From Ferrimonas kyonanensis DSM 18153 (GTDB taxonomy: Bacteria; Pseudomonadota; Gammaproteobacteria; Enterobacterales; Shewanellaceae), in assembly GCF_000425405.1 (NCBI RefSeq), contig NZ_AUDJ01000028.1:21769-85768 (forward strand): DNA of 64,000 nt, given 5' to 3'. Positions within the stretch are counted from its first letter, which is position 1, and each line of letters opens with the position of its first letter. Of this stretch, positions 30,402-50,622 are shown piece by piece. A model generated the notes under the pieces. That model worked only from the letters and a program-made list of their open reading frames with translations, searched no databases and had not been told where the DNA came from. Made by a program: the position numbers and the translations under genes.

Positions 30402-30458
30402 GTTGCTCACCTTTTCGGAATCGAAATCGTGAGCAAAAATTAAGAAATTCCCCGCCTC

Positions 30459-30487
30459 GGCATAACTGTCAGTTGTGCCCATGTCAG
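30459..30487 (-). promoter_or_regulatory. Predicted luxI promoter
   Basis: On the minus strand, CTGACA (30487-30482), a 17-base spacer, and TATGCC (30464-30459). The -35 lies inside the lux-box palindrome, as is typical of LuxR-activated promoters. Confidence 0.5.
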
Positions 30488-30496
30488 ATCTGACAG
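30481..30496. promoter_or_regulatory. lux-box-like palindrome upstream of luxI
   Basis: CTGTCAGATCTGACAT on the minus strand, with a perfect 14-base inner palindrome TGTCAGATCTGACA. The same motif recurs upstream of the RibD-like gene and of the lanthipeptide precursors, but I see it nowhere else in the window. Confidence 0.75.
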
Positions 30497-30607
30497 GTGG
30501 TCGCCAGCGCCGTCGTCCCTTACCTTTACCGCCGTCACTGATGCACCGTCGCGCCCCCCCGCCAAACCGAGCATTGACGCGGATCGGGACGACAGCAATC
30601 AGCCCTA

Positions 30608-30623
30608 CTGTCACAACTGACAG
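30608..30623. promoter_or_regulatory. lux-box-like palindrome upstream of the RibD-like gene
   Basis: CTGTCA-CAAC-TGACAG, a perfect 6-base inverted repeat with a 4-base spacer. It lies about 63 bases before the start of the rightward RibD-like/efflux operon. A half-site ACAACTGACAG also occurs on the minus strand near 30468-30477. Confidence 0.65.
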
Positions 30624-30685: not shown

Positions 30686-31609
30686 ATGACTGCACAGGCC
30701 CACCACGCACAGCACACTCAACACAGCGCCCTGCCCGGCGAACTGTTGTTTACCCTGGATAAGGCTCAGCACCTGTCCCGGCGTTCCGGCTGGGCCTGGT
30801 CCCTGACCCGCAACAACCGCCGCATCGGCTCTGGCTCCGGCATGTTTGGCTACCCGGTGTCATCGCTGCTGCACGCGGCAGTGCAGGAGCAGGCCGACGC
30901 CCTGTACCTGTCGACGCCGCCACACGACGGCTTCATCACCCTGGGCGAGCTGTTACCCAGCCTGAAAGCGGCCAACATTCGTGAGCTCAACATCCCCAGC
31001 ATTAATTGCCCGTGGTGGGTGTTTGGCCAACAACAGAAACAGGCGTCGGATCACGGCATCACCATCAACCGTTTTCCGGTCAAAGACATCGGCAACCAGA
31101 TCTATTACGGCCCCTACACCCTGGCCACTCAGGGTCGCCCCTGGGTGGTCGCGGTCTGCGCCACCACCCTGGGTGGCGGCGATCACCCACTGGCGGCGTT
31201 CGATGGCGAGTTCGGCCACAACCAACGCATTCGCCAGCGGGTGCTGAGCAGCCACGCCCTGGCCAGCGATCTGGCCGACGCCACCCAGGCCTACGCCGGC
31301 CTGCGTAACGCCGCCGGCAGTGAACTGTCGTTGCAGCAATTCGATGGTGCCGAGGCCTTTGCCCGGTTGCTGCTGCAACAGGCACAGATGCAGCTGCCGA
31401 CGCTGGTGGTGATCACCAACCAGAGCCGCTGCCAGCAGCTGATTCAACGGGGCTGGGTGGACGAACTGCTGCTCAGTTGCCAGCTGATCGACAGCCAACC
31501 CAGTCATCAGGCCCTGGCGCCGCTGACCAGCCTCAGCGGCTGGCAGATGAGCGACTGCCACTTGTTAAGCAACGGCGTGCAGCTGGAACTGCTGCGCAAG
31601 CCTTACTGA
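30686..31609 (+). CDS. RibD-like protein lacking deaminase residues
   Basis: A 307-residue protein that looks like a degenerate bifunctional RibD. The N-terminal half aligns by eye with the deaminase fold, but the zinc/catalytic HAE is HAA (LLHAAVQEQ) and the PCxxxC region is replaced (LSTPPHDG). The C-terminal half resembles the RibD reductase (RPWVVAVCATTLGG ... RGWVDELLLSCQLI) without a clear NADPH glycine motif. It is unlikely to make riboflavin. It heads an apparent operon with the HlyD-ABC-FtsX exporter and follows a lux-box-like site, so it may act in the quorum-regulated pathway. Function unknown. Confidence 0.45.
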   Translation: MTAQAHHAQHTQHSALPGELLFTLDKAQHLSRRSGWAWSLTRNNRRIGSGSGMFGYPVSSLLHAAVQEQADALYLSTPPHDGFITLGELLPSLKAANIRELNIPSINCPWWVFGQQQKQASDHGITINRFPVKDIGNQIYYGPYTLATQGRPWVVAVCATTLGGGDHPLAAFDGEFGHNQRIRQRVLSSHALASDLADATQAYAGLRNAAGSELSLQQFDGAEAFARLLLQQAQMQLPTLVVITNQSRCQQLIQRGWVDELLLSCQLIDSQPSHQALAPLTSLSGWQMSDCHLLSNGVQLELLRKPY

Positions 31610-31638: not shown

Positions 31639-32895
31639 ATGGACAGAAAAATCACCCCGAGCCGCGGCCCGGCCATCAAAAACGCCGTCATCGCCACCCT
31701 GTTGGGGCTGGTGCTGGCCTCGGCGGCCTACGCCCTCAGCCATGGCGACAGCGACCGCGTGCAGCAGCGAGTCGACAGCGCCACCCTGATGGTCACTACC
31801 GTTCAAGCCGGTGCCTTTGAGGACACCTTGCGACTGCGTGGCAGCATCAAGCCGAAAACCAGCATCTACCTGGATGCCATCAGCGGTGGCCGGGTGGAGC
31901 AAAAGCTGGTGGAACAGGGGGAGTTTGTCACCGAGGGCCAGCCGCTGGTGAAGCTGTCCAACAGCGCCCTGCAGCTGGACGTCATCAGCCGCGAGGCACA
32001 GATCACCGAGCAGCTCAACTTCCTGCGCAACACCCAGATGACCATGGAAACCAACAAGCTCAACCTGAAACGGGATCTGCTGGAGATTGAACACCAGATC
32101 AACCAATTGCAGCGCAAGGTTAAACAGGCCATTGCCCTGGAGAAGCGCGACCTGATCCCCAAGGACGACCTGCTCAACCTGCAGCAGGATCTGAGCTACT
32201 ACCAGAAACGCCGCCAGCTGACCCAAGAGCGCCAGCAGGCGGAAAACCTGATTCGCCAGGCGCAGATCACCCAGTTGGAGGACAGCGCCAAGATGCTGGA
32301 CACCAACCTGGCCTTTGCCCGTCAGAACCTGGACAACCTGCTGGTGAAAGCACCGGTGTCCGGCTACCTCAGCGACCTGGACGTGGTGGTGGGCGAGTCC
32401 AAGACCAAGGGCGCCCGTCTCGGCCAAATTGACCTGCCCGGCGAGTACAAGCTGGCAGTGGAGGTGGACGAGTACTACCTCAGCCAGGTGCAACTGGGCA
32501 TGGCCGCCAAGGTGCGGGTCAACGGCCGGCTGATCGACGCCATCACCACCAAGATCGACAGCCGGGTCAACGCCTCTCGCTTCACCGTGGAGATTGACCT
32601 GCCCGGCGACCTGGCCGGCATCAAACGTGGCCAGAGCCTGGACGTGGATCTGGTGCTGAGCAGCCCTCAGGACAACGCGGTGCTGCTGAACAAGGGCGCC
32701 TTCGTTAACGACAGCGGCGGCCACTGGGCCTTTGTGCTGTCGAGCGACGGCCACCAGGCCCACCGCACCGCCATTCGCCTGGGCAAGAAAAACGCCACCG
32801 TGTTTCAGGTGCTGGAGGGGCTCAAACCCGGCGACCGGGTGATCACCTCCAGCTATTCAAGCTTCGACAACGCCGACGAACTGCTACTCAACTAA
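31639..32895 (+). CDS. Periplasmic adaptor of an ABC exporter, HlyD/MacA type
   Basis: A 418-residue membrane-fusion protein. It shows an N-terminal transmembrane anchor (IATLLGLVLASAAYAL), a barrel-sandwich hybrid half (SIYLDAISGGRVEQKLVEQGEFVTEG), a long coiled coil (about 110-215), the second half (LLVKAPVSGYLSDLDVVVGE) and beta-barrel domains. AGGAG precedes the start. It partners the ABC ATPase and FtsX-like permease that follow. Confidence 0.85.
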   Translation: MDRKITPSRGPAIKNAVIATLLGLVLASAAYALSHGDSDRVQQRVDSATLMVTTVQAGAFEDTLRLRGSIKPKTSIYLDAISGGRVEQKLVEQGEFVTEGQPLVKLSNSALQLDVISREAQITEQLNFLRNTQMTMETNKLNLKRDLLEIEHQINQLQRKVKQAIALEKRDLIPKDDLLNLQQDLSYYQKRRQLTQERQQAENLIRQAQITQLEDSAKMLDTNLAFARQNLDNLLVKAPVSGYLSDLDVVVGESKTKGARLGQIDLPGEYKLAVEVDEYYLSQVQLGMAAKVRVNGRLIDAITTKIDSRVNASRFTVEIDLPGDLAGIKRGQSLDVDLVLSSPQDNAVLLNKGAFVNDSGGHWAFVLSSDGHQAHRTAIRLGKKNATVFQVLEGLKPGDRVITSSYSSFDNADELLLN

Positions 32896-32917: not shown

Positions 32918-33619
32918 ATGATTACCCTGACCGGCATTCATAAAGCCTTTCGCACCCACGACATCGAAACTGTGGCCCTGGACGCCCTGGATCTGACCGT
33001 GGCCCCCGGCGATTTTGTCTCCATCATGGGGCCGTCCGGCTGCGGCAAGTCGACCCTGCTGTCGATCATCGGCATGCTCGACCATCCCGATGCCGGCCAG
33101 TACCGCTTCGACGGTGAGCAGATTGAGGGCTTTTCCGAGCGGCAATTGGCCAGCCTGCGCAGCCGCTGCCTCGGCTACATCTTTCAGAGCTTCAACCTGG
33201 TAGATGACCTGACCGTGGCCCAGAACGTCGAGCTGCCGCTGCTGTACAACAAGGTCGCCAAGGCCGAACGACGCCAGCGGGTGGCAGCCATTCTGGACCA
33301 GCTCAACATCGGCCACCGCGCCGGTCACCTGCCGCAGCAGCTGTCCGGTGGTCAGCAGCAGCGGGTAGCCATCGCCCGGGCGCTGGTGATCAACCCCAAG
33401 CTGATTCTGGCGGACGAGCCCACCGGCAACCTGGACTCGGAAAACGGCCTCGAGGTGATGCGATTGCTGACCGAACTCAACCGCAAAGGCACCACCATCG
33501 TGATGGTGACCCACTCCCGCCGCGACGCCGACTACGGCAACCGCATCATTGAACTGCTGGACGGCAAGGTGGTCGACGGCGACCAGGGCCAGCCATTGAA
33601 GGAGGTGCAGTGTGCTTAA
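32918..33619 (+). CDS. ABC transporter ATP-binding protein, MacB/LolD type
   Basis: A 233-residue ATPase with Walker [10 protein letters not shown] (38-46), Q-loop FQSFN, signature LSGGQQQR, Walker [13 protein letters not shown] and H-loop VTHSR. These residues match the LolD/MacB subfamily that drives mechanotransmission-type exporters. It overlaps the permease gene by 8 bases. Confidence 0.93.
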
Positions 33620-36291: not shown

Positions 36292-37029
36292 ATGGACGGT
36301 AAGGTTTTCTCCCAAATCGTACAGAATCTGGAGCTGCTCAACTCCGCCGATCAGCTCAAAACAGCCTGTGAAGAGTTCTGCCAGCTGGTGGACATTCCCT
36401 ATTACCTGATGGGGGTGGTGTCTCAGGATTCCCTCTACTCACCGAAGATGAGTGTGCTCAGCAACTACCCGGAAGCGTGGCTCAAACCCTACTTCGAGCA
36501 GGAGAAGCACAAGAGCGATCCGGTGGTGGCCTACATGATGACCAAGCACGCACCGGTGCAGTGGAGCCAGCTGATTCAGCAGAGCCAGTTCAGCGATCCG
36601 AAAAACCAGGCACTGATGATCGAAGCCCGAGAACACGGGCTGGAGAACGGCCTCAGCATTCCCATTCGCTCCACCTCCGGCGAGTTTGCGGTATTCAGCC
36701 TGGCGGTGGACGACGGCAGCGAGGCCGGCAGCGACAAGCTCAACCAGGTGCTGCCCTTCGCCCACACCTTCGGGGTAAACCTGTTTGAGCGCCAGTTGAG
36801 CCTGATTGAGTCGGAAACCCTGGAGGCCAAGCTCACCGCCCGCGAGAAGGAGTGTCTGTTCTGGGCCTGCGAGGGCAAAACCGCTTGGGAGATCTCGCAG
36901 ATCATCGACATTACCGAGCGCACGGTGCTGTTCCATCTGAACAACTCCACCAAGAAGCTCGGTGCCACCAACCGTCAGCACGCGGTCGCCCTGGCGATGC
37001 GTTACGGGCTGATCACCCCCAACGTCTAA
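36292..37029 (+). CDS. luxR: LuxR-family acyl-HSL receptor/regulator
   Basis: A 245-residue regulator with an N-terminal autoinducer-binding domain and a C-terminal LuxR HTH. The conserved ligand-domain signature is visible: W..Y (AWLKPYF), KSDPVV, PVQW, GLENGLSIP. The HTH is LTAREKECLFWACEGKTAWEISQII ... ERTVLFHLNNSTKKLGATNR. It is the likely partner of the LuxI at 29814 and reader of the lux-box-like sites in this window. No lux box is seen in its own promoter. The name denotes the family. Confidence 0.92.
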   Translation: MDGKVFSQIVQNLELLNSADQLKTACEEFCQLVDIPYYLMGVVSQDSLYSPKMSVLSNYPEAWLKPYFEQEKHKSDPVVAYMMTKHAPVQWSQLIQQSQFSDPKNQALMIEAREHGLENGLSIPIRSTSGEFAVFSLAVDDGSEAGSDKLNQVLPFAHTFGVNLFERQLSLIESETLEAKLTAREKECLFWACEGKTAWEISQIIDITERTVLFHLNNSTKKLGATNRQHAVALAMRYGLITPNV

Positions 37030-39151: not shown

Positions 39152-39152
39152 C

Positions 39153-41663
39153 ATGAGCGATATATTAAATCTCATAAACACTCTCGAAAAGGCCAGCATA
39201 CAAGAACAGCTCCCTGGTGAAGCTGTTGGAGCAAAATCTAGCTATAGTGAATTAGATATATCTCGGCTTATAGGCTATGCGTCTCTACTTTCTTTATCCG
39301 ATGAACCAGATGAAAAAATGTTGTCGTATGAAATTATAACAAGACTTTTGGAGGTGTCCGGAGGACAAGATAAGAAAGTTATTACATCGGCAGAAATCAT
39401 TCTATCTAGATTAGGAAACTTCCCAGGGAGATCACTTCTTAGAGAGAGATATGGAAAATTAACCAGTGAAATATCCAACTTCCTTAGGCTTGAATGTATA
39501 TCTAGAGAAGTAGAAAACTCTGTCTTTCTGAACAATGACTCCTCTGCTCAACTAACTGATTTTCAGCATAATCTTTATAGCTCATTAAATAGAGAAAGAG
39601 CGATAAGTGTTTCTGCACCGACATCAGCAGGAAAGTCTTTTGTGCTGAGTTTAAATATCATCCGAAAGCTAGCAAAAGCAACAAATCAGTGTATTGTTTA
39701 CATAGTGCCAACTAGAGCACTAATAACGGAAGTGTCAAATAGAATAAGAATGTCACTCCGAGAGCATGATTTGGAAAAAGTTGTAGTAAGAACGGCCCCG
39801 TTCCCAATATCTATTGAACTTCTAGAAGATGGGGTAATATATGTTCTCACACAAGAAAGATTAACCAACTACTTAAACACTGAAGAGGAAATGCCAGCAA
39901 TTACCTCTTTAGTTATTGATGAAGCACACGAAATACAAAAAGGAAAAAGAGGGATAATACTTCAAAATGCAGTTGATTTAGCTTTAAAAAAACACCCTAG
40001 TGCAGAAGTTTTATTTGCCAGCCCGCTGATAAGAAATCCGGGATACTTCCTCAACTTATTCAACATCGTCGATAAAGGCAAGTTTTTTACTGAAACAGTC
40101 TCTCCTGTTTCGCAGAATATACTACTTGTTTCTGAGATAAAAGGTAAACCAACTCAAGTCAATATCGAATCACTAAGCACAAACAACAAACTAGATATTG
40201 GAATTAGAAATTTACCATTTAGGTTTCGAGGAAACAAAACTCTACAAAAAGCAAACTTTGCAAAATCCTTGCGAAAAACCAGCGAGTCTGTAATTATTTT
40301 CTCAAATGGACCAGCTGACTCCGAAAAAGTTGCATCATCATTAGCTGACATAAATGATGATTTTGAGCCAAGTGAAAAGCTAATAGCATTCATCGAGTTT
40401 CTAAAGAGAGAAATCCATCCAGAATATTCCCTTATTCATTGCTTAAATGGAGGTGTTGGATTCCATTACGGAAAAATGCCTTCAATAGTTAGAAACGGTA
40501 TAGAAAACTTGTTTAAGAATGGGGACATTCAATTCCTTTGTTGTACCAGTACTCTTTTGCAGGGAGTAAACCTTCCTGCAAAGCACATCATCATTGAAAA
40601 TCCAAAATCTGGAACTCAACCGATGTCAAGGGCCGACTTTCAAAACTTATCAGGTAGAGCAGGAAGGTTGTTAAAGGAGTTTCACGGAAATATTTGGTGT
40701 ATACGCCCTGGAGAGTGGGATGAAAAAAACTACGAAGGAGACAGGCTACAAGAGATTACTGCTGCAATAGACAAGGTTATGATTGATGGAGGGGTAGAAA
40801 TCCGCTCCCTCATTGAAGAGTCCCTTATTAATGACAAACGAATAGATGTGGCCGAGGCAGCATTCGGGAAAATATACAATGATATCAACCAAGGAGAAGG
40901 AGAAATACTGGAGAGGTATCGAACAGAAGACAATTCTGAAGAGTTAGATAAAACCATATCAACGATAAAAGAAATAAATATATCAATCCCAAAAGAAATA
41001 CTAAAAAGAAATAGCTCTGTTAGACCAGATCATCTTCAGTCTCTTTATGATTACTTGTATACAAAAAAGTCACTAGATGATCTAACTCCTGAATCTCCCT
41101 TCAAAAAAGGAGCAAAGGCAAAGCTGGATAAAATACTAGACATATTTGCCACCACCTTCAATTGGGATGCGAACCCAAACTACAGAAGATTAATTAGCCG
41201 GACAGCTCATGACTGGATGTGGGGGAAGCCATTAGGTGAACTAATATCTTCTAGAGTGTCATATGTAAAACGCAATGACAGCAAGGCTAAAACACCAATT
41301 ATCATTAGAGATTTTCTTGACGTTGTCGAGTTTCAGGTTAGATTCAAATTAGTGCAATACTTTTCCGCCTACATTGATATTCTTCGACACATTTATATAT
41401 GCCAAAAAGGTATTGATGCAGATCTTGAACCGTACCATATATATCTAGAATTTGGATCTTGTGACAGAACAACACTGAACATAATGGCCACAGGCCTATC
41501 TAGGTTTACAGCCTTGCATTTGTCAAAGCCCCTTTCTAACTATGGGGGGATAACTGATATTGACGATGCTTACAGGAAGATAAAAGAGTTAAATGTGAAT
41601 CGCCTAAATATTCCTCACATATGTAAGCAGGAAATTCACGACCTTACAGGAAGTAGTGCATAA
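39153..41663 (+). CDS. hamB: Hachiman helicase HamB
   Basis: An 836-residue superfamily 2 helicase: Q-like motif (QLTDFQHNLYSSL), Walker A APTSAGKS (155-162), Walker B IDEAHE (Asp256 onward), motif III ASPL, and motif VI QNLSGRAGRLL. About 330 C-terminal residues form the HamB-specific region. The combination with DUF1837 upstream identifies Hachiman. AT-rich codon use (ATA, AGA, TTA) marks recent transfer. Confidence 0.9.
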   Translation: MSDILNLINTLEKASIQEQLPGEAVGAKSSYSELDISRLIGYASLLSLSDEPDEKMLSYEIITRLLEVSGGQDKKVITSAEIILSRLGNFPGRSLLRERYGKLTSEISNFLRLECISREVENSVFLNNDSSAQLTDFQHNLYSSLNRERAISVSAPTSAGKSFVLSLNIIRKLAKATNQCIVYIVPTRALITEVSNRIRMSLREHDLEKVVVRTAPFPISIELLEDGVIYVLTQERLTNYLNTEEEMPAITSLVIDEAHEIQKGKRGIILQNAVDLALKKHPSAEVLFASPLIRNPGYFLNLFNIVDKGKFFTETVSPVSQNILLVSEIKGKPTQVNIESLSTNNKLDIGIRNLPFRFRGNKTLQKANFAKSLRKTSESVIIFSNGPADSEKVASSLADINDDFEPSEKLIAFIEFLKREIHPEYSLIHCLNGGVGFHYGKMPSIVRNGIENLFKNGDIQFLCCTSTLLQGVNLPAKHIIIENPKSGTQPMSRADFQNLSGRAGRLLKEFHGNIWCIRPGEWDEKNYEGDRLQEITAAIDKVMIDGGVEIRSLIEESLINDKRIDVAEAAFGKIYNDINQGEGEILERYRTEDNSEELDKTISTIKEINISIPKEILKRNSSVRPDHLQSLYDYLYTKKSLDDLTPESPFKKGAKAKLDKILDIFATTFNWDANPNYRRLISRTAHDWMWGKPLGELISSRVSYVKRNDSKAKTPIIIRDFLDVVEFQVRFKLVQYFSAYIDILRHIYICQKGIDADLEPYHIYLEFGSCDRTTLNIMATGLSRFTALHLSKPLSNYGGITDIDDAYRKIKELNVNRLNIPHICKQEIHDLTGSSA

Positions 41664-41842: not shown

Positions 41843-42448
41843 TTACTTACTCCATAAAGCATCAACTTTCACTGAGCTGCCTCCCAACTCAGCTATCAAC
41901 GCGATCTTATCCTCTTTGCTCAACTCACTCAGTTCCTGTCGTATTGGATGATAGGTTTCCTTTGGCTCACCAACACCCACAATGTCATCACTCAACAAAG
42001 AGAGTTCCTGCCGCACCTGATCCAACTGCAAGTGAGCATAGGTACCTGCGGTAATACTAAGGTCACTGTGGCCAAGCAACTTGCTGACCGCTTGCAAGCT
42101 GCCTCCCCGGACCACATTCCAGGTCGCAATGGTTCGCCGTAGGTCGTGAATGGTTACGGTGTGCTACCGGTCATCACTGCGCAGTCCGGCTCGTTTAGTT
42201 ATCCGATACCAGGAGCTGGTCGTTCCAGCCCTTTCGACAATATGACCAGACTTGGGCCGTTCAGCAGGGAACACATAGCGTTCCCCAGCCTCTGCTTCTG
42301 CGCTGCGCCTTCTTAGAATCTCCATCACCGGTTCAACCAGTGGTACAGCGTGGGGCCGCTTGCCCTTCATCTTATGGGTGGGAATAAACCAGACGGCGTT
42401 GGCGTGATCTATCTCCTTCCACTCCGTCGAGAGCACGCAGCCTTTGGG
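41843..42448 (-). pseudogene. Broken tyrosine recombinase/phage integrase
   Basis: The minus-strand frame encodes the C-terminal catalytic part of a phage integrase: STEWKEIDHANAVWFIPTHKMKGKRPHAVPL, then TIHDLRRTIATW and LGHSDLSITAGTYAHL with the catalytic HxLRR, H and Tyr residues. An in-frame TAG (42161-42163) splits it, and another TAG at 42449-42451 marks the upstream end, with no N-terminal domain. It is therefore inactive unless suppressed, and is the probable former mobiliser of the Hachiman island. Confidence 0.85.
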
Positions 42449-42578: not shown

Positions 42579-44282
42579 TCAAGCCGGCATCGGTGTCAGG
42601 CTGATGCCGCCACGGCCGTCGATGGTCAGCGACTGATCAAACATGCGGGTAAAACGATTGCCCTCGTGCATGATCATCATCAGTGATGCCCCTTGGGTAA
42701 AGCGGTCGATCAGGGTCAGCACTCTGCCCTTGCTGGCGTCATCGATGTTGGCCAGTGGCTCATCGAACAGGTAGGTGGCGGCGGGTTTCAGCAGGCACAC
42801 CGCGATCTGGCATTTCTTCTTCTGCCCTTCTGACAACGACTCGTAGCCACTTTCCAGGCAGTCGCTCAACCCCAGCTCTTTGATGAGCGGGGCCAGCCTG
42901 GCCTCGGTGCCGTACTTGGCGCTGACGATGGACAGGGTCTTGGCCACGTTGCCTGGCAGCATGCCAAAGGGGTACAACGAGGCACTCATGGCGCTCATCT
43001 GCGGGCCATCGATGCTGCCGGTATCGGGCCGATAGAAGCCGGCCAGTAGGTTGGCAAAGGTGCTCTTACCAGCGCCGTTAGGGCCGCTGATCAGCACTCG
43101 ACTGTGGGGAGCGATGGTCAGATCCGCCTGGTCTAAAATGGTGTGGTCGCCATGACCAAAACCGACCTGGTGCAAGGCAAAGCCCTTGGCCGCTGGCTGC
43201 GGCTCGCCTTTCACCTCAGCTTTTATCTCAACTTTCAGCTCGCCGCCTGTCTCAACTGCTGTTGCAATCGCGGCTTGTCCGTTTATCACGCCGATGCCAA
43301 TTTCCGGCAGGGTCTCGGTCGGCAGTTGCTCGGCCTTGAAGCTTCGGTAGCGCTCCAGCAGTGCGTTCAGGGTTGCCAGTCGCGGCAGTATGGTTGAAAG
43401 CTGCTCTACCGACTGGATCACCATGGAGAAGGCCCGGGTCAGGCCAAACAGGGCGCCAATGGTAATGGCGCCGGTGATCACCTGAAACCCGGCCACCACA
43501 ATCACCGACAGCTCGGCGTAGGACAAAAACACCGCGCTGAGGCTGCGATACATGCTGGCGTAGCGCACGCTCTGGTAGCTGGCTTCCAGCGGCGCCTTCA
43601 GGCCTCGGCGCACCTCCTGGGTGGCGCTGTGGTTCAGATCAAACAGCTTCACCAGTTTGAAGCTGTCGATCACCGTCGACAGCACCGATTTAAACTGCGC
43701 CTCCGACTCCTGCAGGGTGTTGGTCACCTCACCAATCTTGCCGCTGAAGCGGTTCGCCAGCAGGTACAGGGCCGGTACGATCACCACCAGCGCCAGGGTC
43801 ACCTGCCAGCTGATCCAGGCGGCCACCGCCACCCCGCACAGGGCCACCACTACCCCGGTGACCAGCGACACACACAGGTCCACCAGCGACGCCAGTTGCT
43901 TGGGCTCGTCGTGCAGCCGCGCCATGTAGTAGCCCTTGCCGTTGTGATTGATGCTCTGCAGGTCGTGGCGGTAATACACCGCGGTGACCTCGGCGCTGAT
44001 CTGGCGCTGCAATTGGTTCTTGAGCCGCTGCCGCAGCAGCGACGACCAGTAGATCAGGCCGCGGCCCAGGGTGGCCACCGCCGTGACCGCCGCCGCCAGT
44101 ATCAGGAAGAAGCGGGTATCGCCACTGCTGATGGCGTCGATCAGGTGCTTAAGCGCCAGCGGATCCAAAATGGCGAACACCACCGCCTGCAGCACACTGA
44201 CCAGCAGCAGCAGCGCCAGCTGGGAGCCACTGCCGCGCAGCAGGGCCAGTGCCGCTTTGAAGTTGTCTTTACTGATGGGCAT
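42579..44282 (-). CDS. ABC exporter of the lanthipeptide cluster (LanT-like, no protease domain)
   Basis: A 567-residue half-transporter: six transmembrane helices (residues ~15-290), a charged linker rich in Glu/Lys, then an ATPase domain with Walker A GPNGAGKST, signature LSEGQKKK and Walker B YLFDEP. It lacks an N-terminal C39 peptidase, so leader removal must be done elsewhere. It starts 14 bases after lanKC with AAGGAG as ribosome site. Likely role: export of the modified peptides. Confidence 0.87.
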   Translation of the reverse strand: MPISKDNFKAALALLRGSGSQLALLLLVSVLQAVVFAILDPLALKHLIDAISSGDTRFFLILAAAVTAVATLGRGLIYWSSLLRQRLKNQLQRQISAEVTAVYYRHDLQSINHNGKGYYMARLHDEPKQLASLVDLCVSLVTGVVVALCGVAVAAWISWQVTLALVVIVPALYLLANRFSGKIGEVTNTLQESEAQFKSVLSTVIDSFKLVKLFDLNHSATQEVRRGLKAPLEASYQSVRYASMYRSLSAVFLSYAELSVIVVAGFQVITGAITIGALFGLTRAFSMVIQSVEQLSTILPRLATLNALLERYRSFKAEQLPTETLPEIGIGVINGQAAIATAVETGGELKVEIKAEVKGEPQPAAKGFALHQVGFGHGDHTILDQADLTIAPHSRVLISGPNGAGKSTFANLLAGFYRPDTGSIDGPQMSAMSASLYPFGMLPGNVAKTLSIVSAKYGTEARLAPLIKELGLSDCLESGYESLSEGQKKKCQIAVCLLKPAATYLFDEPLANIDDASKGRVLTLIDRFTQGASLMMIMHEGNRFTRMFDQSLTIDGRGGISLTPMPA

Positions 44283-44296
44283 GTCGCACTCCTTGT

Positions 44297-46960
44297 TTAT
44301 CCGGCCAGGTCGTGCAGCCAACGGCTGGAGTTGGTAAGCAGGCGCTGCAGGAACAGGCCGACCCCGGCGGAGCCGTGGGCCAGATCCGTCGATAACCGAA
44401 AGCCGCCACGGCCAAAGTAAACCTTGCCCTCGGGGCGACTGACGCTGAACAGCACAATGCTGTCGGCTATCTGGCAGGCGGCGCGATGGTACTGGTCGTC
44501 ACCGGTGGCCCGGTGAATGTCCAGCAGCAGCTCCCCCAACCCGGCCAGGCCGTTAAAACTACCCTGGGCGGCGGAGTAGCGAGAGAAGCTGGTGACCGCC
44601 AGTGAGGTCAGCACCTGCCGGTAATGGGCCTCGCCGGTGTGCTCGTAGAAACGGGCAATCACCGCGCCGACGCCGCCGGAGCCGTACTCCCAGTACGGCA
44701 ACAGCTGGGTGCTGTCGGCGGTTTCGCCCCAGCGGTAGCTGCCGTCGTCCTGGCGGCCGACCTCGATGTCGTAGGCCAGCGACGCGGTGGCCAGCGCCAG
44801 TACCTCGGCATCCTCATTGACCTTGTGCAGTTGCAGCAGGAACAGGGCGATGCCAGCACTGCCGTGCACCAGCCCCACCGCGTCTCGCTCTTTGGTCTGG
44901 GGATAACGCACGCCCACCGGCATGGCAATGGCCCGCTGCGCCAGCGTCTCGGCAATGGCTTCGGCCTGATGCAGGTAGTTGTCGATGCCGGTGCGTTGGT
45001 GCAATGCCAGCGCCATAAAGCCCACCCCGGCCAGGCCATAGCCAAAGTCATTTCGTTCGCTCAGCAGCGGTGAGGCAAAGGCCCGGGCGGCGTGTCGCTC
45101 CGCCTCGGCGACTCGCCCCAGCGCCAGTTCGGCCATGGCCATGCCGGCACTGCCAATCAGCAGCCCGGGAAGGGAACCACCGTCATCGGCGGCGTCAATT
45201 TTGTCCAGCAGATGCTGAGGCACCGCCAGCCCCTGGCGGGCCAGCAGCAGCGCCGGGCCATAGTAGCCGTAGGCCAGCGCCTTAGGGGTCAAGTCGAAGG
45301 CGTGGTAATCGATGGGCACAAAGTCACTGTGCTCGCCCCGCTGCACCCCGGAGGCGATGAAACGACTTACCTGGTGCAGATGCGCCGACAACTGCTCACG
45401 GCTGTGGCGGGGCGGCGTATTCGGCAGCCGGGTAAAGGGCTCGGCCTCTTTGGCGGCCCGAACCGGGTTGAAGCTGGCTTCCAGCTTTAGGGTCAATGCC
45501 AGCGCCTTTTTCGGCTGGCCCTTAGCCAGGGTGTCAATCACCTCGGCAATGCGACCGTCGAGGCGACAATCGGCCACCAGTTGCGGCAGCAGTTCGGTGC
45601 GCAGCCGCCGCTCCACATCGAACTGGTTCTGCACCGGCAGCATCATGCTGTAGAGCACCATCGCCAGGGCGTACCAGTCGCCCTGATAGGTGCTGCCGTC
45701 ACGCACCAGGGCGTCGAAATCGGAAAAACCGGGGGTGGTGAGCACCGGCACCTTGTCGCGGCCCACTTCGGCCTCGCCGCCACGCTGGCGATAGGCGCCA
45801 TCAAAGTCGATAAAGCGGATGCGCTGATGCTCGGCGTCTACCATGATGTTGTTGGGGGAGATGTCCGCCAGCACCACCCCACGGCGATGCGCGGCCAGTA
45901 CCGCCTCGATGCAGCCCTTGGCCACCCAGGCGAAACAGCCCTTGAAGCGCTCGGCCGACTCCGGTGCATCGGTAAAGGGCACCAGGGTGCACTCGCCGCT
46001 GGCACGAAACTTTCGCAGCGGAATGCCAGCCACAAACTCCTCCACCAGGAAGGAGTGTTCCCATTCCACAAAGAAATCCACCGGCTGCGGGTAGGCGTCG
46101 CAGCCCTGCATCAGCTCCAGGGTGCGGTATTCATTTTTCAGCACCTGGTCGGCGTAGACCCGGGTTTTGCTCAGCGACTGAAAGTTGATGTGAGGGCGGG
46201 CCTCTTTCACCACCACCACATTGCCGGTACGCAGATCCTTGGCCTTGTAGACACCGCCACTGTTGGAGAACGCCAGCGCCTCGATTACCTGATAGCGCTG
46301 ATTCAGCGGCGCGATCTCCTCCGACGGCGTGTGCTGATCCGCAAACGGCTCCGGCACCCAATCTGGCAGTTGATAGAAGGCGCTGCGCTGGTCTTCCACC
46401 AACTCGCCGGTGGGGGTTTCGATGCAGGCGGTGGTGGTGCCATCGGCACTCTGGCGCGATTTCAGCAGGAAGCCGCCGTAGCGGTAATGCACCACCTTGC
46501 TGTCCAGGTAGCGTTTGTCCGACAGAATGTAGGGGCCGACGCTGTCTTTATGGGCCAGATACAGGTCGTGGATCAGCGCCTTAAAGCAGTCGGTGGTCAC
46601 CGGATACAGGGTCAGCAGTTTGCCGCCGCCGCTGCGGCCGGTGGACTTGGAGGTCATGTTGATGGCCAGGTCGTTGCGGCACACCACCTTGAACGAGGTG
46701 TTGTGTTTAACGCAGCAGGCCAGGGTTTTGCGAATTACCTCCAGCGACTGCTCGGCAATGGCCGATACGTGGATCTTAAACCCCTGCAGCGGCAGCTGTT
46801 GCCCGGCCGGGGCCGCCGCCAGCCAGATGCTTTTGCGGCTGCGGGTCCAGGAGGCAGGAATGGCCGACTCCAGCAACTGCTGAAACTCGGCGTCCGGGGA
46901 CAACTCGGCCGGCAGGGTGAAATAACTGCGGTCGCCAAAGGTATAAAGATTGTCAGCCAT
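44297..46960 (-). CDS. Class III lanthipeptide synthetase LanKC
   Basis: An 887-residue three-domain enzyme. The N-terminal ~220 residues are a lyase-like domain (FKIHVSAI ... GPYILSDKRY). A Ser/Thr-kinase domain follows at about 222-500 (Lys252, catalytic loop VVLADISPNN with Asp366, DFD at 385-387). From about 560 there is a LanC-like cyclase. Where LanL/LanC have zinc-binding WCxG and CHG motifs, this protein has YWEYGSGG and LAHGSAG, so zinc ligands are missing; that is the class III pattern. It would phosphorylate and eliminate Ser/Thr in the upstream precursors and form lanthionine or labionin. AAAGGGAA precedes ATG 46960. Confidence 0.92.
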   Translation of the reverse strand: MADNLYTFGDRSYFTLPAELSPDAEFQQLLESAIPASWTRSRKSIWLAAAPAGQQLPLQGFKIHVSAIAEQSLEVIRKTLACCVKHNTSFKVVCRNDLAINMTSKSTGRSGGGKLLTLYPVTTDCFKALIHDLYLAHKDSVGPYILSDKRYLDSKVVHYRYGGFLLKSRQSADGTTTACIETPTGELVEDQRSAFYQLPDWVPEPFADQHTPSEEIAPLNQRYQVIEALAFSNSGGVYKAKDLRTGNVVVVKEARPHINFQSLSKTRVYADQVLKNEYRTLELMQGCDAYPQPVDFFVEWEHSFLVEEFVAGIPLRKFRASGECTLVPFTDAPESAERFKGCFAWVAKGCIEAVLAAHRRGVVLADISPNNIMVDAEHQRIRFIDFDGAYRQRGGEAEVGRDKVPVLTTPGFSDFDALVRDGSTYQGDWYALAMVLYSMMLPVQNQFDVERRLRTELLPQLVADCRLDGRIAEVIDTLAKGQPKKALALTLKLEASFNPVRAAKEAEPFTRLPNTPPRHSREQLSAHLHQVSRFIASGVQRGEHSDFVPIDYHAFDLTPKALAYGYYGPALLLARQGLAVPQHLLDKIDAADDGGSLPGLLIGSAGMAMAELALGRVAEAERHAARAFASPLLSERNDFGYGLAGVGFMALALHQRTGIDNYLHQAEAIAETLAQRAIAMPVGVRYPQTKERDAVGLVHGSAGIALFLLQLHKVNEDAEVLALATASLAYDIEVGRQDDGSYRWGETADSTQLLPYWEYGSGGVGAVIARFYEHTGEAHYRQVLTSLAVTSFSRYSAAQGSFNGLAGLGELLLDIHRATGDDQYHRAACQIADSIVLFSVSRPEGKVYFGRGGFRLSTDLAHGSAGVGLFLQRLLTNSSRWLHDLAG

Positions 46961-47123
46961 TACAAAGTTCCCTTTTGTAAATAAAGACAGAAAAAGAAGA
47001 AAGAGAATAAACAGATATAAAAATGAACATCACCAGTAGCCATTGCCAATATCAATATTCACAACGCCTACCGGTGACCGTCCACTGCCTATTCAGAACA
47101 CAACATCATGCGCTGAATATATT

Positions 47124-47149
47124 GGCCTGAATACGAGGGAGATCAGGCC
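47124..47149 (-). other. Hairpin between precursor array and lanKC
   Basis: Inverted repeat GGCCTGA / TCAGGCC with a 12-base loop, 13 bases after the last precursor stop in the 201-base gap before lanKC. It could be an attenuator or 3'-end stabiliser that keeps precursor mRNA in excess over synthetase mRNA. There is no T-run. Confidence 0.4.
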
Positions 47150-47161
47150 GGCAATTCCAGA

Positions 47162-47269
47162 TTACTTCAACTGCTGTTCGTTGTTGCAGTTCACGCTGAA
47201 AGTACTCCAGTCCATCAATTCGGCATCGGAGTCTACGGCCAGGGTTTGCAGGTTCAATACGTTATGCAT
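47162..47269 (-). CDS. Class III lanthipeptide precursor 6
   Basis: A 35-residue peptide found by reading the minus strand. Leader MHNVLNLQTLAVDSDAELMD contains the class III LxLQ recognition motif; the core WSTFSVNCNN contains SxxSxxC (Ser22, Ser25, Cys28) and ends EQQLK. AAGGAA lies 8 bases before the ATG. It is last in the array and nearest to lanKC. Confidence 0.88.
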   Translation of the reverse strand: MHNVLNLQTLAVDSDAELMDWSTFSVNCNNEQQLK

Positions 47270-47296
47270 GATCAAATTCCTTTTTTAACAGTGCAA

Positions 47297-47404
47297 TTAT
47301 TTAAGTTGAACTTCGTTGTTACAGTTAACGCTGAAGGTGCTCCAATCCATCAGTTCGGCATCGGAGTCTACGGCCAGGGTTTGCAGGTTCAATACGTTAT
47401 GCAT
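47297..47404 (-). CDS. Class III lanthipeptide precursor 5
   Basis: A 35-residue peptide identical in amino-acid sequence to precursor 4, with core WSTFSVNCNN and ending EVQLK. It lies in a 135-base unit that is an almost exact tandem duplicate of the unit carrying precursor 4, including the spacer and AAGGAA ribosome site. Confidence 0.88.
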   Translation of the reverse strand: MHNVLNLQTLAVDSDAELMDWSTFSVNCNNEVQLK

Positions 47405-47431
47405 GATCAAATTCCTTTTTTAACAGTGCAA

Positions 47432-47539
47432 TTATTTAAGTTGAACTTCGTTGTTACAGTTAACGCTGAAGGTGCTCCAATCCATCAGTTCGGCATCGGA
47501 GTCTACGGCCAGGGTTTGCAGGTTCAGTACGTTGTGCAT
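47432..47539 (-). CDS. Class III lanthipeptide precursor 4
   Basis: A 35-residue peptide, leader LNLQTL, core WSTFSVNCNN, ending EVQLK (Val where most copies have Gln). It is identical in protein sequence to precursor 5. An AAGGA ribosome site lies upstream. Confidence 0.88.
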   Translation of the reverse strand: MHNVLNLQTLAVDSDAELMDWSTFSVNCNNEVQLK

Positions 47540-47566
47540 AATCAAAATCCTTTTTGAAATCGTGGG

Positions 47567-47674
47567 TTAGCGAATCTGTTGTTCGTTGTTGCAGTTAACG
47601 CTGAAGGTGCTCCAGTCCATCACATCGGCATCGGAGTCTACCGCCAGGGCTTGCAGGCTAAGTACATGTTGCAT
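47567..47674 (-). CDS. Class III lanthipeptide precursor 3
   Basis: A 35-residue peptide and the most divergent leader of the set (MQHVLSLQALAVDSDADVMD). The core WSTFSVNCNN is unchanged, and the ending is EQQIR instead of EQQLK. AAAAGGAA lies upstream of the ATG. Confidence 0.88.
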   Translation of the reverse strand: MQHVLSLQALAVDSDADVMDWSTFSVNCNNEQQIR

Positions 47675-47698
47675 GGTCAAATTCCTTTTAGTGAGTGC

Positions 47699-47806
47699 TT
47701 ACTTCAGCTGCTGTTCGTTGTTGCAGTTCACACTGAAAGTGCTCCACTCCATCAGCTCGGCATCGGAGTCTACGGCCAGGGATTGCAGGTTCAATACGTT
47801 ATGCAT
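47699..47806 (-). CDS. Class III lanthipeptide precursor 2
   Basis: A 35-residue peptide, leader with VLNLQSL, core WSTFSVNCNN preceded by Glu20 (ME) where copies 3-6 have Asp20 (MD), ending EQQLK. AAAGGA lies 8 bases before the start. Confidence 0.88.
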   Translation of the reverse strand: MHNVLNLQSLAVDSDAELMEWSTFSVNCNNEQQLK

Positions 47807-47832
47807 GGTCAAAGTCCTTTTTAATTGAATGA

Positions 47833-47940
47833 TTACTTAAGCTGTTGTTCGTTGTTGCAGTTAACGCTGAAGGTGCTCCATTCCATCAGTTCAGCATCGG
47901 AGTCTACCACCAGAGTTTGCAAGCCGAGTACGTAATTCAT
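47833..47940 (-). CDS. Class III lanthipeptide precursor 1
   Basis: First of six precursors behind the quorum-type promoter. A 35-residue peptide: leader with VLGLQTL (LxLQ motif), acidic DSDAELME, then core WSTFSVNCNN with Ser22, Ser25 and Cys28 in the SxxSxxC labionin spacing, ending EQQLK. AAGGA precedes the ATG at 47940. Synonymous differences from the other copies, with an unchanged core, indicate selection on the core. Confidence 0.9.
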   Translation of the reverse strand: MNYVLGLQTLVVDSDAELMEWSTFSVNCNNEQQLK

Positions 47941-48009
47941 TATGAATTCCTTAATCTTATTTAATGAGTCTGGAACACCGTTATTGGTTGTTGCCAGAAG
48001 ACGAGATAA

Positions 48010-48038
48010 ATCCTAGCCAAGATTAAAAAGTTCAATAA
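48010..48038 (-). promoter_or_regulatory. Predicted promoter of the lanthipeptide operon
   Basis: On the minus strand, TTATTG (48038-48033), a 17-base spacer and TAGGAT (48015-48010). The lux-box-like palindrome at 48039-48054 abuts the -35, centred near -44, a position fitting LuxR activation. The predicted leader before precursor 1 is about 60 bases. Confidence 0.6.
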
Positions 48039-48054
48039 CCGTCATATCTGACAG
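48039..48054. promoter_or_regulatory. lux-box-like palindrome, promoter-proximal, lanthipeptide operon
   Basis: Minus-strand CTGTCAGATATGACGG, matching the luxI box CTGTCAGATCTGACAT at 13 of 16 positions. It is directly next to the predicted -35. Confidence 0.7.
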
Positions 48055-48078
48055 GGTGATTCCTTTATTGGCCCAAAC

Positions 48079-48094
48079 CCGTCAGATCTGACAG
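48079..48094. promoter_or_regulatory. lux-box-like palindrome, distal, lanthipeptide operon
   Basis: Minus-strand CTGTCAGATCTGACGG with a perfect GTCAGATCTGAC core, 40 bases (about four helical turns) upstream of the proximal box. The first 14 bases equal the luxI box. Confidence 0.72.
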
Positions 48095-48098
48095 CCAT

Positions 48099-48131
48099 AA
48101 AAAAAGCACAGCCCTTGAGCTGTGCTTTTTT
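48099..48131. terminator. Terminator downstream of the first SDR gene
   Basis: AGCACAGC / GCTGTGCT stem with a 6-base loop, flanked by A6 and T6. It ends the SDR transcript at 48151 and insulates the lanthipeptide promoter region. Confidence 0.88.
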
Positions 48132-48150
48132 GCTGCCGTGATTAGAGCGC

Positions 48151-48774
48151 TCAGATCACCCAGTGACTGTCGCCATTCACGTATTCGGCCACCTGCAGAG
48201 TCTCGCCACTCATGGTTCCCAGCAGCGCCGCTTCGTACACCGCAGCGGTAAGCGACGCCGGTACGCAGTTGCTGGTGTCCATGCCCATCATCGCCATGGT
48301 TTCGGTCACAAATGACGGCGACACCACGTTCACCCGCAGGTCGGTCACTTCCACCGCCACCGCTTTAACAAAACTCTCCAGCGCCCCATTGGCCATGGCC
48401 ACCGAGGCGCAGCCCTGCACCGGCTCCCGGGCGGCAAAGCCCGACGTCAGGGTGATGGAGCCGCCGCGGCACACCGCCTGGCGGCCGATGCGCAGCAGGT
48501 TGACCTGCCCCATCAACTTGTTGTTCAGAGTCTGGTGATAATCCGCTTCGGTCAGATGCTCAAATGGCCCAAAGCTGGTGACACCAGCGGCGCAGATAAT
48601 GGCATCCACCTCACCGGCGGCATCAATCATGGTGCGAATGCTGTCGCTGTCGGTGAGATCAAAACGCAGATCGCCATGACTGTAGCCGGCGGTAATGATC
48701 TGATGATCGCCAGACAGGCGCTTGAGAATGGCACTGCCAATGGTGCCCGATGCGCCGGCAAGAAGAATTCTCAT
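48151..48774 (-). CDS. Short-chain dehydrogenase-like protein (copy 1)
   Basis: A 207-residue Rossmann-fold protein with nucleotide motif GASGTIGSAI and AICAAGV. The usual SDR catalytic YxxxK is replaced: the equivalent stretch is SVAMANGALESFVKA, with neither Tyr nor Lys in place. It is paralogous to the gene at 49023, so a local duplication is likely. Substrate unknown; an atypical or regulatory SDR is possible. Confidence 0.75.
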   Translation of the reverse strand: MRILLAGASGTIGSAILKRLSGDHQIITAGYSHGDLRFDLTDSDSIRTMIDAAGEVDAIICAAGVTSFGPFEHLTEADYHQTLNNKLMGQVNLLRIGRQAVCRGGSITLTSGFAAREPVQGCASVAMANGALESFVKAVAVEVTDLRVNVVSPSFVTETMAMMGMDTSNCVPASLTAAVYEAALLGTMSGETLQVAEYVNGDSHWVI

Positions 48775-48903
48775 GAGTGGCGTTGCTCCTTCACTGTGCT
48801 AGTGACTGTTTCACCAGGTCCATTTATCTGATTCACACCGGCAGGGTATGGCCGGGATAACCAGTATAGGGCGACAGTTTACTAAGAGCATTGATTCTAA
48901 GAC

Positions 48904-48941
48904 AAAAAAAAGAGCCACACCTCTATCAAAGAGTGTGACTC
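48904..48941 (-). terminator. Terminator of the second SDR gene
   Basis: Imperfect stem GAGCCACACCTCT / AGAGTGTGACTC with a short loop. On the minus strand it is followed by a long T-run (A-run at 48904-48911). Confidence 0.75.
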
Positions 48942-49022
48942 GGGCAGTGATTTGGTCACTTAAAGAGTGTAATCCGCATTCAATTACACACAGGCATGAT
49001 GAAAAAGCATAACTCCAACAAC

Positions 49023-49622
49023 TTACAAGAAGTTTGGTGCATCCAAAGTCTCACCAGACATCTCGCCGGATACCGCGGCCTCGTACGCCTTGGCCGTGTC
49101 TGCGGCCGAGATGCCTGAGCTGGTATCCATGCCCATCATAGCCATGGTTTCCTTAACGAATGCTGGCGCCACCGCATTAACCCGCAATCCGTTCAGCTCC
49201 AGTGCAGCTGCTTTGACAAAACTCTCCAGGGCGCCGTTGACCATGGACACCGACGCACTGCCTGGCATGGGCTGGCGCGACAGGATACCGGAAGTCAGGG
49301 TGATGGAACCGCCGTCGTTGATGTAATCGCTACCCAGGCGCACCAGGTTCACCTGCCCCATCAGCTTGTTGTTCAGTGCCAGTTGGTAGTCGTCGTCACT
49401 CTGCTGTGCCAGCGGCCCAAACGCCGCCAATCCGGCGGTGGAGATCACCGCGTCCACCTTACCCACCTGCTCGAACAGGGCCTTGATGGACTCTGGGCTG
49501 CCCAGATCCACCTGCACATCGCCGTCACGGAAACCGGCTGCGATGACTTGATGTTGACCGCTCAGGCGCTCTGCGACGGCCTTGCCAATGGTTCCGGTTG
49601 CGCCAATCAATAGTACTTTCAT
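49023..49622 (-). CDS. Short-chain dehydrogenase-like protein (copy 2)
   Basis: A 199-residue paralogue of the protein at 48151, with GATGTIGKAV, LNNKLMGQVNLVRLG and SVSMVNGALESFVKA. The catalytic Tyr/Lys are again not at the expected positions. ATG 49622 with GGAGA is the start; longer in-frame extensions are not coding-like. It is divergent from the LysR gene, which probably regulates it. Confidence 0.8.
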   Translation of the reverse strand: MKVLLIGATGTIGKAVAERLSGQHQVIAAGFRDGDVQVDLGSPESIKALFEQVGKVDAVISTAGLAAFGPLAQQSDDDYQLALNNKLMGQVNLVRLGSDYINDGGSITLTSGILSRQPMPGSASVSMVNGALESFVKAAALELNGLRVNAVAPAFVKETMAMMGMDTSSGISAADTAKAYEAAVSGEMSGETLDAPNFL

Positions 49623-49716
49623 GGGTGTCTCCAAATTCGTTGTTTGCTTAAGTTGGAGAAAGTGTAGCCACCGGCTTAGAATAGAAAAATAACCTGAAAT
49701 CGAAATTACTTTTCTC

Positions 49717-50622
49717 ATGGAAAGAAAAATAGATCTGCTTAAGGCGATGCGCACCTTCGTGGTGGTGGTGAACAAGCTCAGCTTCAGTGCCGCCGCCCGC
49801 GAGCTCAATATCGTGGTATCGGCGGTCAGCCGCCAGGTGTCGGATCTGGAAAAGCATTTCGACTGCATCTTGCTGTACCGCACCACCCGCGCCATGAAGC
49901 TGACTCCGGAAGGCCAGCACTACCTGGACGAGTTCAAGGCGGTGCTGGAGCGGCTGGACAACCTGGAGCTGTCGGCGGCCCAGCGCCAGCACAAGATAGG
50001 CGGGCGACTGCGGATCACCTCGGCGTTCAACATTGACCAACTGGGGATTCAGCATGTGGTGGCCGACTTTCTGCGCCAGTACCCGGATGTACAGTTGTCG
50101 TGGGTACTGGTAAACCGCTACGTCAATCTCATCGAAGAGGGGTTCGATCTGGCCCTGAGGGTGGGCGAGCTCAGCGATTCCGGCTTTATCGCCCGTCACT
50201 ACCTCAGCATGAAAATTCTGATGGTGGCCAGCCCCGACTATCTGGCCGCGCACGGTACCCCTGAACACCCCAAGGCGCTGTCGGAGCACCGCTGGCTGGT
50301 GGACTCCTCCAACCGCCAACCCGGGCGGGTGCGCTACCAGGAAAACGGTAAACAACACCAACTCAGCGTCAACGGTCATGTCGACGTAAACCAGGGCACC
50401 CTGCTCGCCGACTTCGCGGCGGCCGGGCTGGGCATCGCCCAGTTGCCGGAGTTCATGCTCAGCCACCATCTGCAGCAGGGCAAATTGGTGCCCATCCTTG
50501 AGGAATACCAGTTGCCCGCGCTGGATGTGTCACTGGTGTACCCGGCCAGCAAGCTCACCGATCCGACCCTGCGTGCCTTCATCGACCACCTGCTGGCGCA
50601 CAAACATCTCAGCACTGAGTAA
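49717..50622 (+). CDS. LysR-family transcriptional regulator
   Basis: A 301-residue LTTR. The N-terminal HTH is FVVVVNKLSFSAAARELNIVVSAVSRQVSDLE, followed by a substrate-binding domain with the common DLALRVGEL and AGLGIAQLPEFM. It belongs to the group typical of aromatic/SDR-linked LTTRs. It is divergent from SDR copy 2, sharing a 94-base intergenic promoter region. No strong ribosome site is visible. Confidence 0.92.
   Translation: MERKIDLLKAMRTFVVVVNKLSFSAAARELNIVVSAVSRQVSDLEKHFDCILLYRTTRAMKLTPEGQHYLDEFKAVLERLDNLELSAAQRQHKIGGRLRITSAFNIDQLGIQHVVADFLRQYPDVQLSWVLVNRYVNLIEEGFDLALRVGELSDSGFIARHYLSMKILMVASPDYLAAHGTPEHPKALSEHRWLVDSSNRQPGRVRYQENGKQHQLSVNGHVDVNQGTLLADFAAAGLGIAQLPEFMLSHHLQQGKLVPILEEYQLPALDVSLVYPASKLTDPTLRAFIDHLLAHKHLSTE

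Follow-up and report, generated by a model that had tools for sequence, protein, structure and literature searches.

The 64,000-nucleotide stretch of Ferrimonas kyonanensis DSM 18153 analysed here (the window) contains six tandem genes for class III lanthipeptide precursors with one common core, next to a gene for a class III lanthionine synthetase (LanKC), and the same locus holds the only luxI and autoinducer-binding luxR genes of the genome. We consider it probable that the six single-core precursors are modified by the adjoining LanKC and that the set is switched on at high density by the LuxI/LuxR pair of the locus. In the mechanism that we propose, LuxI would make an acyl-homoserine lactone (AHL), and AHL-bound LuxR would occupy palindromes that precede the array, the exporter operon and luxI. 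LanKC would bind the LxLQ leader, phosphorylate and eliminate Ser22 and Ser25, perhaps also Thr23, and close a ring on Cys28, as labionin or lanthionine; host proteases would trim the leader, and the ABC systems would export the product. With six copies sharing one core, the array would deliver more of a single product instead of supplying a library. As a signal synthase, a receptor, candidate operators, a six-fold array and exporters lie in one locus, its function is directly testable by adding AHL.

Table 1. Features of the lan/lux locus in window coordinates
Feature	Coordinates	Strand	Remarks
Second palindrome, CTGTCAGATCTGACGG	48079..48094	n/a	40 bp further upstream of array
Lux-box-like palindrome, CTGTCAGATATGACGG	48039..48054	n/a	98 nt before first precursor
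Precursor ORF, first copy	47833-47940	minus	35 codons + stop
Precursor ORF, second copy	47699-47806	minus	35 codons + stop
Precursor ORF, third copy	47567-47674	minus	35 codons + stop
Precursor ORF, fourth copy	47432-47539	minus	35 codons + stop
Precursor ORF, fifth copy	47297-47404	minus	35 codons + stop
Precursor ORF, sixth (last) copy	47162-47269	minus	35 codons + stop
LanKC, class III lanthionine synthetase, 887 aa	44297..46960	minus	NF038151, Pfam, solved homologues
ABC exporter, membrane + ATPase domains	42579..44282	minus	Pfam; homologue 3' of LanKC elsewhere
Phage integrase family fragment (PF00589)	42164-42436		Adjoins ABC exporter; remainder of gene looks broken
HamA/HamB Hachiman pair	38225-41663		PADLOC models matched over nearly full length; between ABC exporter and luxR
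LuxR-type regulator	36292..37029	plus	PF03472 + PF00196
FtsX/MacB-type ABC permease, 805 aa	33612..36029	plus	PF02687, PF12704
ABC ATPase of tripartite exporter	32918..33619	plus	PF00005
HlyD-type periplasmic adaptor	31639..32895	plus	PF13437
307-aa protein, no named family	30686..31609	plus	Predicted RibD-like fold
Lux-box-like palindrome	30608..30623	n/a	62 nt before 307-aa gene (exporter operon)
Lux-box-like palindrome	30481..30496	n/a	79 nt before luxI
LuxI, AHL synthase, 195 aa	29814..30401	minus	PF00765; LasI homologue

The precursor array and its synthetase

A sequence-only reading had described six tandem 35-codon genes on the minus strand at 47162..47940, each with its own ribosome site and all with a shared leader and an invariant WSTFSVNCNN core, and the ORF coordinates bear this out. 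The start-to-start spacings of 134, 132, 135, 135 and 135 are reproduced, an AAGGA-type site stands ahead of each of the six ATGs, and L5, L7, Q8 and W21-N30 are identical in 6/6 copies. TRF reports the array as a tandem repeat with a period of 135, 5.7 copies and 84% matches; antisense frames in the ORF list reach 103 aa over it. Five of the ten core codons (21-30) differ among the six copies, every change being synonymous, and summed over the 15 copy pairs the core differences are 34 synonymous and 0 nonsynonymous. The pN/pS ratio is accordingly 0 in the core, compared with 0.35 in the leader, 0.28 in the tail and 0.22 over the whole ORF; the fourth and fifth copies encode identical peptides. 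Since the core protein is invariant while the core DNA varies synonymously, we take the array ORFs to be real genes, and judged by this substitution pattern they are translated and selected, and keep one core. The six copies were the sole peptide matches in the 4.93-Mb genome in a search at E<=10.

The assignment of the peptides to class III also stood. The first and last copies, which were scored individually, reached 30.3 and 30.4 bits against NF038154 (cut-off 22), and at E<=0.01 this profile matched 18 of 20 related precursors, 5 of the 20 being from this array. The adjoining gene encodes a LanKC that exceeds the curated cut-off of the class III model NF038151 (647.9 bits, cut-off 575) and stays below that of the class IV model NF038150 (478.6 bits, cut-off 650). 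Because of the NF038154 scores and this neighbour we regard the array peptides as class III precursors. They are not new as a kind, since NCBI already applies the name 'class III lanthipeptide' to close relatives of them in Shewanella, Pseudoalteromonas and Microbulbifer; S. baltica and Microbulbifer EKSA005 are among the carriers of such precursors.

LanKC carries RamC_N, kinase and LanC-like Pfam domains, and the closest solved proteins are the LanKC enzymes 8sao, 8sap and 8sam, the last a precursor-LanKC fusion. Residues K252, D366, N371 and D385, which we take to be kinase residues, are invariant in 15 aligned sequences including that of the window. At the LanC Cys positions, which are presumably those of the zinc ligands, the window protein reads WEYG and AHG by eye, and the consensus of the 15 sequences reads WExG and AFG; by these motifs the LanC-like domain is without zinc ligands.

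The earlier statement that the SxxSxxC spacing of the core is required for labionin was too strong: the spacing lies within the published range, and lanthionine is also possible. The available part of one paper gives SxxSx(2-5)C as the range for labionin or lanthionine (PMC11251773), and that of Walker 2020 describes Sx2Sx3C as characteristic, yielding lanthionine or labionin depending on the peptide (PMC7268733). The ring predicted on Cys28 could equally be either. The calculated mass of the last precursor (47162-47269) is 4006.850 Da without modification and 3970.829 Da with two waters lost; for the core W21-K35 it is 1796.815 Da, falling to 1760.794 and 1742.783 Da on loss of two and three waters. 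The scan of window genes recognised no leader peptidase, for which reason trimming is assigned here to host proteases; Pfam found no C39 peptidase domain in the ABC exporter. About one third of surveyed lanthipeptide clusters are without a protease, according to the available part of PMC10885120. Two candidate leader-peptidase genes, one of M16 type adjoining the Arsukibacterium array and one of S46 type close to luxI in Shewanella sp. KX20019 (L116 6553-8709), were not adopted because neither turned up when the window and Shewanella SR44-3 loci were scanned, a scan that covered part of the flanking genes.

Labyrinthopeptin, SapB and NAI-112 are class III (LanKC-type) lanthipeptides. The window system shares with this class the lyase, kinase and zinc-less LanC-like domains of LanKC, the LxLQ leader, the SxxSx(2-5)C core and a cluster in which no protease is recognised; it differs in its single-ring WSxxSxxC core, its six copies, its Gram-negative host, and its LuxI/LuxR pair and tripartite exporter. 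Multi-copy class III arrays are already known from Walker 2020 (PMC7268733), where the available text describes a Bacillus cereus class III cluster with 13 identical precursors. That cluster likewise holds many copies of one precursor, but it comes from a different phylum and no quorum-sensing link is stated in that text.

The wider locus and its predicted RibD-fold protein

In Shewanella SR44-3 (L029), the array is followed by LanKC, the ABC exporter, luxR, the FtsX/MacB permease, the ATPase, the HlyD adaptor, a 310-aa protein belonging to no family, and luxI. This gene set runs through the window in equal order, from 47940 down to 29814, interrupted between the ABC exporter and luxR. Identity to SR44-3 is 81% for LuxR and LuxI, 76% for the ATPase, 71% for the adaptor, 65% for the permease, 64% for LanKC, 61% for the ABC exporter and 51% for the 307-aa protein. 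The open frames of LanKC, the exporters, luxI and luxR are full length in the window (the ABC exporter start, ATG 44282, was picked by eye; its longest ORF begins at 44321), and an ABC exporter homologue follows LanKC in 9/10 other loci compared, the exception being L028 of Pseudoalteromonas sp. SMS1. On our preferred reading the lan/lux block is a self-contained module, likely taken up horizontally as a unit and later split by the insertion that carries the Hachiman pair.

In KX20019 (L116) the order is luxI, an unnamed RibD-fold homologue, luxR, ABC, LanKC and four precursors, and the tripartite exporter was not found in the 19.9-kb stretch examined. The Arsukibacterium locus and the Pseudoalteromonas loci L024, L025 and L027 have the tripartite exporter, and luxI is absent from them. 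Just past the KX20019 array lie a DDE transposase gene and an rve-type integrase-core gene (L116 17374-19660). Upstream of the window array, at 48151-49895, two neighbouring PRK07578 short-chain dehydrogenase genes stand beside a LysR regulator gene; no counterpart of the pair was found in the ten other loci compared.

An adaptor and an FtsX-type permease beside a RiPP cluster are also found with darobactin (DarC and DarB). The window adaptor is a relative of DarC. Identification of the window exporter as DarB/DarC was rejected, both proteins being far below the NCBIfam cut-offs (adaptor against the DarC model, 202.5 of 450 bits; permease against DarB, 113.8 of 700). The exporters bear on what the product might do. 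The same system could make a peptide that is surface-active, developmental or signalling rather than antibiotic, in which case quorum sensing would time a group behaviour; this is compatible with our preferred explanation, and we hold it to be a reasonable possibility without favouring it. Class III peptides can have non-antibiotic roles, as SapB does in Streptomyces, and both the AHL link and the finding that no scanned gene of the window is named as an immunity gene fit such a role, whereas the two ABC export systems would also suit a bacteriocin. In the available parts of the literature cited here, the characterised class III lanthipeptides come from Gram-positives.

The 307-aa protein shows a two-domain RibD fold in a predicted model only (pLDDT 76), and its Foldseek rows have TM-scores of only about 0.5. 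The top three rows (E 1.7e-11 to 7.1e-11) bear the title of a Klebsiella 3-dehydroquinate dehydratase I, not RibD; these entries align to the model much like RibD entries and have RibD-like lengths, and we suspect that their titles are wrong. The family profile gave 0 matches to PDB sequences at E<=10. The zinc ligands of the RibD deaminase are His, Cys and Cys, and since no Cys is invariant in eight aligned homologues of the 307-aa protein, this site is missing. From RibD (riboflavin deaminase-reductase) the protein therefore differs in this site and in having no RibD sequence match in domain-model and profile searches. Its gene is present in 3/3 luxI-bearing loci examined, a partnership previously undescribed, and the protein is likely to be accessory, with a candidate role in tailoring or self-protection. 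Only tentatively would we go on to see in the locus a mobile, self-contained module, in which the host's only LuxI/LuxR pair would make a single-ring lanthipeptide density-dependent and the zinc-less RibD-fold protein would be a new tailoring or self-protection component.

The LuxI/LuxR pair and its candidate operators

LuxI, whose start was picked by eye inside ORF 29814-30614, scores 107.8 bits against PF00765 (cut-off 24) and, aligned to LasI, keeps R, F, W, D, D, R, F, E and R, which we take to be the LuxI residue set. LuxR scores 106.9 bits against PF03472 (cut-off 23) and 60.1 bits against PF00196 (cut-off 23.5); it aligns with LasR and is 81% and 75% identical to the LuxR proteins of two Shewanella loci. 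In the whole genome PF00765 and PF03472 (Autoind_bind) each have one match, at this locus and in this LuxR, respectively, and within the genus LuxI occurs in 1/14 genomes, its own (0/13 congeners). A luxI gene and an autoinducer-binding luxR gene lie beside lan genes in three organisms, namely the window, SR44-3 and KX20019. No LuxI match at E<=0.001 was obtained from the genome of P. rubra S2471, and the Arsukibacterium genome gave just one weak match (29.9 bits), located away from its lan locus, which places LuxI outside the wider array family; the SMS1 genome has one match, below the cut-off.

A survey, presumably Brotherton 2018, includes the lanthipeptide type among the luxR-linked biosynthetic clusters of Proteobacteria (PMC5872303). 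Its clusters resemble the window in having luxR/luxI beside biosynthetic genes, but the available part gives no lanthipeptide class, precursor or operator. Our literature search, which mostly did not extend to subscription papers, found no paper combining LanKC and LuxI, and the titles and abstract openings it returned named no AHL-controlled class III lanthipeptide.

The palindromes of the window (Table 1) are 16-bp dyads and match in form the putative abaI box, CTGTAAATTCTTACAG, in the available part of PMC6523755. The CTGTCANNNNTGACNG pattern falls at 3 places genome-wide, two before the array and one in the luxI/exporter gap; read backwards as a control, it also occurs 3 times, so the count is ordinary and the placement is not. 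The distance from box to luxI is 79 nt in the window, 78 in SR44-3 and 77 in KX20019, and that from box to RibD-fold gene 62, 59 and 65 nt, a single box being shared by the two genes in KX20019.

A site matrix built from the window's own four palindromes was compared with the maxima of 20 shuffles. It detects CTGTCAGAACTGACAG at 86 nt upstream of the Arsukibacterium array (23.9 bits; shuffle maximum 19.6), a site in the KX20019 luxI gap (22.5 bits; 15.1), two in the SR44-3 luxI gap (19.3 and 17.1 bits; 18.3) and one before the SMS1 LanKC gene (17.3 bits; 15.9). Before the SR44-3 array, two palindromes 39 bp apart score 12.7 and 12.2 bits (shuffle maxima: mean 12.3, top 18.3), the best site before the KX20019 array is weak (8.7 bits), and in L024, L025 and L027 the best sites do not exceed the shuffles. 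A search for CTGTCANNNNTGACAG in five related genomes found one occurrence in Arsukibacterium, at the array, two in SMS1, one of them before LanKC, none in KX20019, and one each in SR44-3 and P. rubra S2471, outside the lan contigs (the P. rubra contig begins inside the array, so that the array promoter lies off it). Support from relatives is thus uneven, with strong boxes in some and weak or absent ones before the array in others. The three Pseudoalteromonas loci have in common a dyad, CTGTTGTATTTTACAG, about 71 nt before the HlyD exporter gene (L024 5046, L025 4905, L027 4802), whose score with this matrix stays within the shuffles.

This unevenness bears on the explanation that the locus is an ordinary class III cluster in which luxI and luxR lie nearby by accident, the array being constitutive or under another regulator. 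The same array type in P. rubra S2471, with no LuxI match, would suit that explanation, as would the shuffle-level and weak sites before the SR44-3 and KX20019 arrays. We nevertheless find it unlikely, since the genome has one luxI and one autoinducer-binding luxR, both genes lie beside lan genes in three organisms, the CTGTCANNNNTGACNG pattern falls only at this locus, and a strong box precedes the Arsukibacterium array.

According to the available part of PMC1766932, the dyad to which LuxR proteins bind typically overlaps the -35 region. A scan of 46900-48300 found no terminator and, counting against quorum control of the array, no sigma-70 consensus promoter before it; the single sigma-70 site of the scan falls within the array on the plus strand, and shuffled sequences gave more (mean 2.4). 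By eye, TAGGAT is present at 48010-48015 and would set the nearer candidate box near -43.5. A hairpin after the array was considered as an expression attenuator; none is claimed for the window because its z is only -0.70 (42/200 shuffles fold equally well or better). The hairpins after the Arsukibacterium (z -5.69), P. rubra (-3.41) and SR44-3 (-3.37) arrays are strong and that in KX20019 (-2.26) is moderate.

Relatives and distribution

That such an array is unusual in a gammaproteobacterium, as the sequence-only reading had it, proved partly right. LanKC is rare and patchy: at E<=1e-50 it occurs in 4/152 genomes of the family including its own, in none of 13 congeners and in 1/369 genomes of a class sample, its own, and at E<=1e-40 in 7/394 genomes of the order including its own. 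It is nevertheless present in several named gammaproteobacterial genera; among the best 120 of 160 matches, LanKCs of 45-64% identity come from Shewanella sp., Shewanella sp. KX20019, Microbulbifer, Arsukibacterium and Pseudoalteromonas. A contig profile search with a single LanKC confirmed 0/30 stretches, and one with a 15-LanKC alignment confirmed 100 loci, the 80 best being retained. In a plasmid search with the array and LanKC start, the one match was short, covering 4% of the query, and fell within a LanKC gene of Deinococcus.

In a LanKC tree of 32/40 chosen rows (8 were dropped, the frame at the reported match start being <=700 residues), nine gammaproteobacterial rows including the window form one clade (100/100), within which the window groups with SR44-3 and KX20019 (100/100); the LanKCs of Luteimonas, Lysobacter, an uncultured Pseudoalteromonas and G447 fall outside it. 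Precursors of the window clade share W-S-x-x-S/T-x-x-C, with W21, S22 and C28 invariant in 20 aligned, and make up a compact WSxxSxxC peptide family common to several gammaproteobacterial genera. SR44-3 has eight precursors and KX20019 four, with WSTISNHC in both; A. ikkense has four WSILSGVC precursors and one with Thr replacing the second Ser; P. rubra S2471 has three on its contig. In SR44-3 the tail is dispensable, as two of the eight precursors stop at the Cys.

No WSxxSxxC-type precursor was found in Pseudoalteromonas sp. SMS1. Its locus (L028 9580-9995) has LanKC and a CTGTCAAAAATGACAG palindrome, with only a Cys-less LxLQ-leader ORF upstream and no ABC exporter after LanKC. That the window array and LanKC are a decaying relic, their copies kept by recombination and yielding no product, is very improbable given the purely synonymous core differences and the full-length frames of LanKC, exporters, luxI and luxR, although SMS1, the two identical window peptides, and the recombinase-gene fragment and defence system inside the block would fit it.

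Arrays are also found with more distant LanKCs. In G447, another genome of the family, a distant LanKC is accompanied by a MacB-like tripartite exporter and by an array whose near-identical precursors have SLSSLAS(A/V)VCC cores (L117 6462-7434), from which it follows that multi-copy arrays recur. Three unclassified metagenome bacteria (L038, L044 and L046) combine distant LanKCs with arrays of mostly WST(I/L)S-type cores; the WSTxS motif therefore either predates the gammaproteobacterial clade or arose twice.
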